Positions 13,962 to 20,394 of a stretch of DNA of 64,000 nucleotides are shown here, in pieces (the stretch's first letter is position 1; each line of letters starts with the position of its first letter). Source of the stretch: Micromonospora cathayae. GTDB taxonomy: Bacteria > Actinomycetota > Actinomycetes > Mycobacteriales > Micromonosporaceae. The notes below the pieces were generated by a model, which had not been told where the DNA came from, did no database searches, and was given only the letters and a program-made list of their open reading frames with translations. The stretch covers positions 4,121,001 through 4,185,000 of the forward strand of contig NZ_CP118615.1 of the NCBI RefSeq assembly GCF_028993575.1, in the 5' to 3' direction. A program made the position numbers and the translations under genes.

Positions 13962-14552
13962 ATGTCCATCTTCGCCACGTCCGCGCGTCCGTACCCGGCG
14001 CCCCGCCTGGTCGCACCGCCGCGACCCCGGGTGGCCCCGGCCCTGACCATCACCGTCGACGTCACCCCCGGCGCGGTGACCCCCCGGCTGGCCCGCCTGG
14101 TCGAACTCCTCAACGAACTGGCCGAGACGGGCGAGGGGGTGCTCCGGGTGCAGGGGCTGGACCGGGTGGCGCTCGCCGAGGCGCCGGTGGAGCCGGCCCG
14201 CCGGGAGCCGGCGCCCGCGCCGACTCCCGTACCCCGTCGACCCGGCCCGCAGACGTTGACCCTCTCGGTCGCCGCCCGGGACGCGCGGTGGGGCTCCCGG
14301 GTCGTCGGTCTGACCCGGATCGAGTTCGACCTGCTGCTCTTCCTGGCCGAGCACCCGCGCCGGGTGTTCACCCGGCGGCAACTGCTCGCCGGGGTGTGGG
14401 GACACGAGCACTCCGTCACCCGGACCGTCGACGTGCACGTGCGCCGGCTCCGGGCCAAGGTCGGCGACACCGTGCCGTTGGTCACCACGGTGCACGGCGT
14501 CGGCTACCGGCTCGCCGACGACGCGCCGGTGGTCATCGACCGGGACCACTGA
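13962..14552 (+). CDS. OmpR-type winged-helix DNA-binding protein without receiver domain (copy 1)
   Basis: 196 aa from ATG 13962. The C-terminal 100 residues are a complete trans_reg_C winged helix: LTRIEFDLLLFLAEHP, VFTRRQLLAGVWG, RTVDVHVRRLRAKVG and the wing VTTVHGVGYRL. In place of a phosphoacceptor receiver, the N-terminus has a short strand-helix segment (ALTITVDVTPGAVTPRLARL) and a Pro-rich linker, so it is not a normal response regulator. A paralogue lies 261 bp downstream. It probably regulates the adjacent cysteine dioxygenase/rhodanese genes (inference). Confidence 0.86.
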   Translation: MSIFATSARPYPAPRLVAPPRPRVAPALTITVDVTPGAVTPRLARLVELLNELAETGEGVLRVQGLDRVALAEAPVEPARREPAPAPTPVPRRPGPQTLTLSVAARDARWGSRVVGLTRIEFDLLLFLAEHPRRVFTRRQLLAGVWGHEHSVTRTVDVHVRRLRAKVGDTVPLVTTVHGVGYRLADDAPVVIDRDH

Positions 14553-14813: not shown

Positions 14814-15419
14814 ATGTCGGTCAGCCCCGCCTCGTCGCGCGCCGGATGGCATACGTCCCAGCCCGTGGTCCCCGGTCGTCCCCCCGCCGGCCAGCGCCGT
14901 CCGGCCAGCACAGCGGCCCCCGTCCTCACCGTGACCCTGTCCATCCCGCTCGCCTCCGACGAGGCGCTGACCCCGGCGGCCCGCCGACTGCTGGACGCCG
15001 CCCGGGAACTGCTCGAGCGCGGGGAGGGCGTGGTCACCGCCGTGCCCGCGGCGGACCGTCGCCCGGAAGCCGTCCCGTCGGGTCGTACGCCGTCGCGGGC
15101 GGTCGCGCCGACCGTGCCGGCCCTGCACATCCTCGCCGCCTCCCGGTCGGTGCTACGCGACGGCGAGCCGCTGCCGTTGACCCGGCTGGAGTTCGACCTG
15201 CTGCTGCACCTGGTCGCCCACCCGCGCCGGGTCTTCACCCGGCTGCAACTGCTCAACGCCGTCTGGGGGTACGAACACGCCGGGGTGCGGACCGTGGACG
15301 TGCACGTGCGCCGGTTGCGCGGCAAGGTCGGGGTGGACGTCCCGCTGGTCACCACGGTCTACGGTGTCGGCTACCGGCTCGCCGACGACGCCCGGGTAAC
15401 CGTCGACCGGACGGGCTGA
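14814..15419 (+). CDS. OmpR-type winged-helix DNA-binding protein without receiver domain (copy 2)
   Basis: 201 aa from ATG 14814 with an AAGGAGGA ribosome-binding site. It is paralogous to the protein at 13962: the same layout of a VLTVTLSIPL N-terminal segment, Pro/Ala linker, and the winged helix LTRLEFDLLLHLVAHP, VFTRLQLLNAVWG, RTVDVHVRRLRGKVG and TTVYGVGYRL. The DNA-binding domains are nearly the same while the N-terminal sensor-like parts have diverged. This suggests shared or overlapping sites with different inputs, or heterodimers. The gene has its own low-GC upstream region. Confidence 0.86.
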   Translation: MSVSPASSRAGWHTSQPVVPGRPPAGQRRPASTAAPVLTVTLSIPLASDEALTPAARRLLDAARELLERGEGVVTAVPAADRRPEAVPSGRTPSRAVAPTVPALHILAASRSVLRDGEPLPLTRLEFDLLLHLVAHPRRVFTRLQLLNAVWGYEHAGVRTVDVHVRRLRGKVGVDVPLVTTVYGVGYRLADDARVTVDRTG

Positions 15420-18789: not shown

Positions 18790-19032
18790 ATGGCACTCAA
18801 CGACGACGACATCACCACGACCGGCGGCGGCGGGGCGGAGGGTCCGGCCGACGGCGGTGCCACCCCCGGTCAGCAGGACGGCGGCGCCGACGGCGGGGCG
18901 GAGGGTCCGGCCGACGGCGGTGCCACCCCCGGTCAGCAGGACGGCGGCGCCGACGGCGGCGCGGAGGGCCCGGCTGACGGGGGCGCCACCCCGGGCCAGC
19001 AGGACGGCGGCGCCGACGGCGGCGCCCGGTAA
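18790..19032 (+). CDS. Short repeat peptide: leader plus three perfect 21-residue Gly/Asp/Ala repeats (RiPP-precursor-like)
   Basis: 80 aa from ATG 18790, after a GAGGGAG ribosome-binding site. Residues 1-15 are a leader-like start (MALNDDDITTTGGGG). Residues 16-78 are three identical copies of a 21-residue unit that begins AEGPADGG, continues ATPGQQDGG and ends ADGG; the protein ends in Ala-Arg. It has no cysteine, aromatic or basic residues except the last Arg. Sequences of this style have been labelled BatC in actinobacterial annotations, without proven function. A JmjC oxygenase gene starts 6 nt after the stop. The layout resembles a multi-core ribosomal peptide precursor with its modifying enzyme (inference). 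Confidence 0.82.
   Translation: MALNDDDITTTGGGGAEGPADGGATPGQQDGGADGGAEGPADGGATPGQQDGGADGGAEGPADGGATPGQQDGGADGGAR
18835..19023. repeat. Three 63-bp in-frame repeats inside the repeat-peptide gene
   Basis: Copies lie at 18835-18897, 18898-18960 and 18961-19023. Copies 1 and 2 differ at one base. Copy 3 differs from copy 2 at six third-codon positions, all synonymous. Confidence 0.95.
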
Positions 19033-19038
19033 CGCCTG

Positions 19039-20394
19039 ATGACGACCATCGACCCGCCGGGCGGCCGTGCTGGCCGCCCGGCGGTTCCGGCTGTCCCGAC
19101 CCGCGACTCCGCCGCTGCCGTCGGCTCCCTGGCTGCCTCCGCCGCTGTCGTCGACTCCGCCGGCACCGGCGCCCCGGCCGCCCTCGCCGCGTTGGCCCGG
19201 TGCGTGGCCGTCGAACCGGCGAAGTTCGCCGCCGCCCACTGGGGACGGGCCCCACTGCTGTCCCGGGCCGCCGAGCTACCCCGGCCGGCCGGCTTCACCG
19301 ACCTGCTCAGCCCCGCCGACGCCGACGAGCTGCTCAGCCGGCGCGGCCTGCGTACCCCGTTCCTGCGGATCGCCCGGGACGGCCAGCTCGTGCCGGCGGC
19401 GCGGTGGACCGGCGGTGGCGGGGCCGGCGCCGAGGTCGGCGACCAGGTGCTCGACGAACGGGTCATGGAGCAGTACGCCGACGGCGCGACCCTGGTCCTG
19501 CAGGGCCTGCACCGCACCTGGCCGCCGCTGATCGACCTGGCCCGCGACCTGGGTCTGGCCGTGGGGCAGCCGATGCAGGTCAACGCCTACCTCACCCCGC
19601 CCGGCAACCAGGGGTTCGCCACCCACTACGACACCCACGACGTCTTCGTGTTGCAGGTGGACGGCCGCAAACGGTGGCGGATCCACCCGCCGGTGCTGCC
19701 GGACCCGCTGGAACGGCAGCCCTGGGGCGGTCGGGCCGACGAGGTCTCCGCCACCGCCGAGGGTCCCGCCGCGCTCGACGTGGTGCTCGAACCCGGCGAC
19801 GCGCTCTACCTGCCGCGCGGCTGGCTGCACAGCGCCCAGGCGCAGGAGTCCAGCTCGCTGCACCTGACCATCGGGGTACGGGCGCTGACCCGGTACGCCA
19901 TCGTCGAGGAACTGCTCGGCCTCGCCGCCGAGGATCCCCGGCTGCGGGCCGGCGTGCCGTTCGGCACCGACCTGGCCGACCCGGAGGCGGTGGAACCCGA
20001 GCTGACCGAGACCGTCGACGCGCTCCGCGACTGGCTGCTGCGCGCCGACCCGGCGGCGGTCGCCGACCGGCTGCGTCAGCGTCTCTGGCCGGCGGCCCGA
20101 CCCGCGCCGATCCGCCCGCTCGCCCAGGCCGCCGCGATCCACGCGGTGAACCTCGACAGCACCCTCACCCTCCGCGCCGGGCTGCGGTGGCAGCTCGTCG
20201 GGGACGGCCCGGACCGGGTGGCCCTGCGGCTGTTCGACCGGACCATCAGCTGGCCGGCGGTGTGCGGGGAGGCGGTCCGGGCGTTGCTCACCGGCACGGT
20301 GTCCCGGGTCGGTGACCTGCCCGGCCTCGACGACCCCGACCGTGTCGTGGTCGCCCGCCGGCTGCTGCGCGAAGCCGTCGTCGTCCCCACCTGA
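19039..20394 (+). CDS. JmjC/cupin-4 domain Fe(II)/2-oxoglutarate oxygenase
   Basis: 451 aa from ATG 19039, 6 nt after the repeat-peptide stop. The first 50 residues are Ala/Pro-rich. The JmjC barrel carries the iron triad His196-x-Asp198 (in FATHYDTHD) and His264 (in LPRGWLHSA), plus Lys211 in DGRKRWRIHPP at the usual 2-oxoglutarate site. A C-terminal helical and winged-helix-like part follows, as in bacterial ribosomal-protein hydroxylases of the RoxA type. Such enzymes hydroxylate Arg, His, Asn or Asp side chains in proteins. Because the repeat peptide lies immediately upstream, that peptide is the likely substrate (inference); a ribosomal protein is the alternative. Confidence 0.88.
   Translation: MTTIDPPGGRAGRPAVPAVPTRDSAAAVGSLAASAAVVDSAGTGAPAALAALARCVAVEPAKFAAAHWGRAPLLSRAAELPRPAGFTDLLSPADADELLSRRGLRTPFLRIARDGQLVPAARWTGGGGAGAEVGDQVLDERVMEQYADGATLVLQGLHRTWPPLIDLARDLGLAVGQPMQVNAYLTPPGNQGFATHYDTHDVFVLQVDGRKRWRIHPPVLPDPLERQPWGGRADEVSATAEGPAALDVVLEPGDALYLPRGWLHSAQAQESSSLHLTIGVRALTRYAIVEELLGLAAEDPRLRAGVPFGTDLADPEAVEPELTETVDALRDWLLRADPAAVADRLRQRLWPAARPAPIRPLAQAAAIHAVNLDSTLTLRAGLRWQLVGDGPDRVALRLFDRTISWPAVCGEAVRALLTGTVSRVGDLPGLDDPDRVVVARRLLREAVVVPT

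Follow-up and report, generated by a model that had tools for sequence, protein, structure and literature searches.

A repeat peptide gene beside a JmjC oxygenase gene

What is the substrate of a JmjC oxygenase whose gene begins 6 nt past the stop codon of a gene for a short repeat peptide? Both genes lie in the window, by which is meant the whole 64,000-nucleotide stretch of Micromonospora cathayae DNA analysed here, part of a 7.2-Mb single-contig genome (G000). The reading developed below is that the two genes probably form a phylum-wide RiPP-like system in which the oxygenase would hydroxylate the Asp residues of the repeats. The peptide gene has the following parts.

18790..19032, plus strand: precursor-like peptide gene, 80 aa (open reading frame; in 79 of 80 close relatives a homologue immediately precedes the JmjC gene)
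18790..18834, plus strand: leader-like N-terminus MALNDDDITTTGGGG, in which LNDDDIT is similar to the LxDxDIxT motif seen in distant precursors
18835..18897, plus strand: repeat 1, AEGPADGGATPGQQDGGADGG (repeat comparison)
18898..18960, plus strand: repeat 2, protein identical to repeat 1 (repeat comparison)
18961..19023, plus strand: repeat 3, protein identical, with 7 and 6 synonymous differences from repeats 1 and 2

The open reading frame and the repeat comparison confirm the original prediction of an 80-residue peptide with a short leader and three identical 21-residue repeats: MALNDDDITTTGGGG is followed by three copies of AEGPADGGATPGQQDGGADGG (starting at 18835, 18898 and 18961), then by AR and the stop codon. 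The repeats differ pairwise by 1, 7 and 6 nucleotides, every one at a third codon position, as expected for purifying selection on a translated repeat. A chance low-complexity reading frame is ruled out by these synonymous-only changes together with the conserved gene pairing described below. Pfam and NCBIfam contain no family for the peptide at E<=0.1; a search in which 8000 candidates were scored gave 170 homologues at E<=0.001. Two of these, P0011 and P0015, bear the name BatC, in agreement with the earlier remark that similar peptides are so labelled; the name has no domain support in Pfam or NCBIfam and looks like a low-complexity transfer. In the metagenomic peptide P0043 the repeats continue into a stretch resembling the start of a JmjC domain; either the two genes are naturally fused there or the contig has a frame error. 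Like a RiPP precursor, the peptide is short, gene-encoded and composed of leader-like and core-like parts; the leader motif is missing in five divergent precursors.

Pairing of the two genes across the phylum

The close-relative set comprised the best 80 of 104 relatives, and the peptide gene precedes the JmjC gene in 79 of them. A script recognised 78 of these pairs, including L030 and L055, in which the contig end cuts the peptide and part of it is visible; L056, where the peptide is interrupted by a run of N, was read by eye. L045, the one remaining relative, has too short an upstream sequence for a judgement. A sample of 148 genomes of the class contained 46 with a JmjC match at E<=1e-10. 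Directly upstream of the 30 best places (E<=1.1e-43) an Asp-rich repeat peptide is encoded in 29 cases, the exception being L113 (G069), whose upstream reading frame is acidic and non-repeating. In a 246-genome sample of the phylum, 33 genomes matched JmjC at E<=1e-20, and a precursor was found at 19 of the 20 new loci; L195 is truncated by the end of its contig, and the places G173:C264 and G294 stand outside this count. The rows compared share descent, so that the counts are not independent; overall there are three misses, two of them contig ends and one real. Nothing further came from a plasmid search, whose 153 records all had less than 60% identity.

The pairing is a property of this clade of enzymes. 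Among the 24 weaker rows of the class sample, G033, one row of G125 and one of G015 were left out and two G119 rows represent one gene; an Asp-rich repeat peptide was found at only one (L146) of 20 stretches with such JmjC_2 paralogues and was absent at 19, of which 11 were also read in three frames. JmjC homologues widely present without a neighbouring repeat peptide, named in the original prediction as the finding that would speak against it, are encountered among distant paralogues; within the clade no such wide occurrence was found, L113 being the one enzyme there with a non-repeating upstream frame. Seen from the peptide side, a profile built from 41 rows (the window peptide and 40 of the 170 homologues) matches 23 of the 148 genomes, and in 22 the match adjoins JmjC; the match without JmjC beside it, in G005 (E 4e-4), is the weakest of the 23. 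Several distant precursors that escape the profile were recognised when the sequences were read.

A putative modifying enzyme is therefore encoded with its precursor over many genomes, as in RiPP systems, and the predicted co-occurrence of the two genes is borne out. It is almost certain that the two genes work together.

The oxygenase and its relation to ribosomal oxygenases

19039..20394, plus strand: JmjC_2 (cupin-4) Fe(II)/2-oxoglutarate oxygenase, 451 aa, with the NO66/MINA53/YcfD fold (Pfam, sequence and model matches)
19186..19893, plus strand: catalytic jelly-roll part, about residues 50-285 (Pfam and model)
19624..19632, plus strand: codons for H196-Y-D198, which supplies two iron ligands (unchanged in all 67 rows)
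19828..19830, plus strand: codon for H264, which completes the iron site (unchanged in all 67 rows)
20152..20391, plus strand: C-terminal winged-helix domain, approximately residues 372-451 (model secondary structure; agreement with the C-terminus of NO66)

The protein, which shares 89% identity over 88% of its length with a sequence labelled Micromonospora inyonensis, matches JmjC_2 (PF08007, E 2.4e-29) and Cupin_8 (E 1.2e-10) in Pfam. The gene and the His196-x-Asp198...His264 site are present as had been predicted. Invariant in the 67 aligned rows, besides the iron ligands, is K211, which from the alignment we take to be the 2OG-binding lysine. The Pfam match, the HxD...H site and this lysine identify the protein as a JmjC_2 oxygenase.

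Its closest solved structures by sequence and fold, over the whole length, are NO66, MINA53 and YcfD, and the model matches full-length human NO66 including the C-terminal winged helix. This likeness is the argument for regarding the enzyme as another ribosomal oxygenase acting on a ribosomal protein, with the peptide as a co-transcribed regulator or decoy. Four observations make this very unlikely. The gene occurs patchily (the 46 of 148 class genomes mentioned above), and its pairing with an Asp-rich peptide of variable length is fixed. The serine of NO66 that binds the substrate His, Ser421 (PMC4556315, PMC9994133), aligns with G279 by count along the alignment, a position occupied by Gly in 66 of 67 rows, so that this mark of the His-type ribosomal oxygenases is replaced. 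Finally, basic residues are found where relatives without the peptide are acidic. Enzymes with Asp-rich precursors are marked by R105, R159, R54, R379 and R441 and have Arg, Gln or His at positions 105, 155, 158 and 159, whereas those without such precursors often have Glu at 105 and Asp or Glu at 155 and 158.

In a tree of 70 enzymes, with a midpoint root and some forks open, the precursor types cluster. The GGAD type requires 2 changes versus a mean of 21.7 after shuffling, the DxD type 4 versus 18.9, and the state without a precursor 4 versus 17.7. The long-branch proteins L148, L151 and L156, which have no Asp-rich precursor, are placed among the Asp group.

The residue probably modified in the repeats

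Close to the window the repeat has the form EGPADGGATPG(Q/H/K/R)(Q/H/R)DGGADG(G/S). In 224 repeat units from 64 Micromonospora and Salinispora loci, position 5 is Asp in all 224, position 14 in 222 (2 are unreadable) and position 18 in 222 (2 are Pro), with synonymous variation of the codons. Within the repeat it is the two Gln positions that vary. Distant precursors, whose leader is usually like LTDEDIxTVW or LNDDDITT, retain little of the core beyond dense Asp among Gly, Ala, Ser and Thr, in runs resembling DADGTDGDATDGTDGD, TDADADS or GADGGADGG. The precursor at L199 is built on another acidic repeat, PTEDDENLDAPGEHSQDTGDE, which is very unlike these and occurs twice.

Dense acidic repeats of the DxDxDG kind recall calcium-binding repeats. 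Their occurrence in distant precursors could mean that the peptide functions without modification, perhaps as a disordered acidic protein that binds calcium or another metal, the oxygenase being a partner with another substrate. This is improbable in view of the leader-plus-core layout, the fixed gene order and the invariant catalytic residues, and because sister JmjC_2 genes have other short peptides or a TfuA-like gene as neighbours (see below); we rate it marginally lower than the action on a ribosomal protein. The enzyme very probably modifies the peptide.

Which residue it modifies was approached through the composition of the cores, taken as the last 45 residues of each precursor. The script covered 48 of 51 loci; unscored were L103, a script miss with a peptide visible by reading, and L113 and L195, which yielded none. 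Asp and Ala are present in all 48 cores, Gly in 47, Ser in 42, Thr in 35, Pro in 25, His in 23, Gln in 16 and Asn in 9; Cys, Phe and Tyr occur in none. The original prediction had named Asp, Gln or Pro as the target. Asp is favoured, and Gln and Pro are rejected as universal targets because the Gln positions are variable and 32 of the 48 cores lack Gln and 23 lack Pro. His is disfavoured by its restriction to 23 cores and by the replacement of the NO66 serine, which is Gly in every one of the 48 enzymes that have Asp-rich precursors; the glycine counts against His only, since it is also found in 15 of 19 enzymes without such precursors. Mere presence does not distinguish Asp from Ala and Gly, and Asp is preferred on account of its functional side chain and of the evidence from the enzyme.

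A different modification would be oxidation of His, Gln, Pro, Ala or Gly, or a desaturation, a cross-link or a cleavage of the backbone. In its favour, His or Gln directly precedes the middle Asp in many repeats, Ala and Gly are as universal as Asp, and 2OG enzymes are described as going beyond hydroxylation in RiPPs (PMC12636437). The counts for His, Gln and Pro and the glycine at the serine site weigh against it, and we consider it unlikely, with a better chance all the same than either reading that leaves the peptide unmodified. Oxidation of Asp by the JmjC enzyme is the likely reaction. The comparison of genes and proteins shows phylum-wide pairing, intact cofactor residues, constraint on Asp and a correlated change in enzyme charge. 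Points that weigh against this reading are the equal universality of Ala and Gly, the non-repeating frame at L113, the placement of L148, L151 and L156 on the tree, the clade whose precursors have no leader motif, and the lack of a conspicuous conserved protease or transporter (see below).

The winged helix and the leader

In the model, the C-terminal domain consists of strands followed by helices, the order found in RRE domains, which are winged helices of three strands and three helices; the domain also matches the winged helix of NO66. RRE-like folds are reported to be fused to PF08007 in fish and algae, with bacterial homologues in RiPP-like contexts (PMC12710340, section 6). The modelled domain in the window fits the RRE order of elements given there; the part of that text dealing with PF08007 fusions names no precursor family of the Asp-repeat type.

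The leader motif is missing in one clade (L105, L106, L109, L111 and L112), whose winged helices align at a lower coverage of 0.85-0.88 and have a low identity of 0.24-0.34 to that of the window. The values of L110, which has a short leader, and of L113 are similar (0.26 and 0.30), and L108, in which the leader is present, has 0.33. Loss of the leader together with a diverged winged helix fits leader binding by this domain weakly, because it represents one event in one clade. Recognition of the leader by the winged helix has about an even chance of being correct.

Neighbouring genes

Reading frames of at least 90 aa were clustered over 26 stretches, and no protease or transporter family stood out among them. 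Genes for leader removal or export are not part of every RiPP cluster and may lie elsewhere in the genome. The one family other than JmjC and its antisense frames present in more than 4 stretches outside Micromonosporaceae was Suc_Fer-like (PF06999), ferredoxin-like, an identity confirmed by Pfam in the 4 proteins checked. Its gene lies directly downstream of JmjC in 16 of 20 chosen non-Micromonosporaceae stretches, for example:

L167:7314-8216, minus strand: Suc_Fer-like gene after JmjC
L173:10127-11047, plus strand: Suc_Fer-like gene after JmjC

The Suc_Fer motif was also found in 4 of the 20 phylum-sample loci, which have short flanks. A motif search was negative in the window and in all 80 loci L002-L081, and PF06999 has no match in the M. 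cathayae genome. These absences rule out Suc_Fer as a third obligatory gene, and it is regarded as accessory. The families conserved outside Micromonosporaceae do not include DUF2267, DUF72 or the downstream membrane protein; inside Micromonosporaceae other neighbours are conserved, which is ordinary synteny. Elsewhere in the window, the neighbouring frames 13962-14552 and 14814-15419 appear by eye to be paralogues; their C-terminal parts are alike and recall the DNA-binding domain of OmpR-type proteins.

The genome has a second JmjC_2/Cupin_8 gene outside the window (L083, G000:C1 around 5526828, minus strand), preceded by an unrelated three-repeat peptide with units like HFPAHVKNSYVNCQEYARTARLSPPPAAE. 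The JmjC_2 gene at L145 directly follows a TfuA-like gene (PF07812, E 4.7e-29), TfuA being a partner in thioamidated RiPP clusters, and the one at L153 lies beside a piece of a peptidase S9. At L153-L155, L158, L161, L149 and L150, which are more distant JmjC_2 genes, short non-repeating peptides just upstream end in sequences like DSDGTDGSSDFI, SDGSDG or SDGND; these may represent further families of precursors sharing the Asp-Gly target. A RiPP-like appearance is thus also seen at some JmjC_2 genes that lack an Asp-repeat precursor.

A model for the two-gene system

According to the model, the small gene would give rise to a flexible precursor with the short acidic leader LNDDDIT and tandem repeats of Asp, Gly and Ala. 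The oxygenase would bind the leader, possibly through its C-terminal winged helix, and the repeats would be fed past a basic surface into the Fe(II)/2-oxoglutarate active site, where Asp side chains would be oxidised, most likely by hydroxylation at C-3 (beta). Up to three Asp could be modified in each repeat, nine in the repeats of the window.

As no dedicated protease or exporter stood out nearby, the product could be pictured as a metal-binding hydroxyaspartyl peptide that stays intracellular or is released by general proteases, a tentative view more easily wrong than right. More speculative still is a phylum-wide class of poly-hydroxyaspartyl peptides in which one JmjC enzyme modifies many Asp per chain to yield an acidic iron- or calcium-binding biopolymer, an intracellular metal buffer coupled to oxygen and iron and not a secreted antibiotic; the Suc_Fer-like gene would belong to the same iron/redox theme.

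The significance of the locus lies in a compact, widely conserved, probable enzyme-substrate pair. If the model is confirmed, it adds a JmjC enzyme acting on Asp and a RiPP-like family in which a single enzyme modifies each chain at many sites, and it hints that a winged helix of the NO66 type can be a leader-binding domain.

Comparison with known systems

No description of the Asp-repeat peptide/JmjC family was found in the literature searched, a body of text that leaves most subscription papers aside; a term search of PMC7794033 gave no mention of JmjC or cupin. JmjC enzymes are known to hydroxylate peptidyl Orn in RiPPs of the biphenomycin type (PMC12257519, PMC12707348). As proposed for the pair in the window, PbsQ, BpmG and BipG are JmjC or cupin-like hydroxylases of a ribosomal precursor; they are set apart by belonging to multi-gene clusters, in which they modify Orn once other enzymes have acted. 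In the window, unlike the biphenomycin clusters, the JmjC enzyme is the sole modifying enzyme beside a multi-repeat, Asp-rich precursor.

PesHI and SmaO beta-hydroxylate Asp within ribosomally made precursors (PMC13060819, PMC13097080). PesHI is an MNIO and not a JmjC enzyme, and the precursors and cluster layouts described for both differ from the pair in the window. FIH, which has the JmjC fold, hydroxylates Asp in an ankyrin-repeat protein (PMC4543633).

With NO66/RIOX1, MINA53/RIOX2 and YcfD the window enzyme shares the whole-length fold with the winged helix, the HxD...H site and the side-chain-binding Tyr, Y184 aligning with Tyr328 of NO66 by count along the alignment. It differs by its position next to an Asp-rich repeat peptide, by Gly in place of the substrate-binding serine, by Arg, Gln or His at 105, 155, 158 and 159, and by an extra LRTPFLR stretch at a gap in NO66. 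The enzyme is apparently a relative of the ribosomal oxygenases that has switched to an acidic low-complexity peptide.
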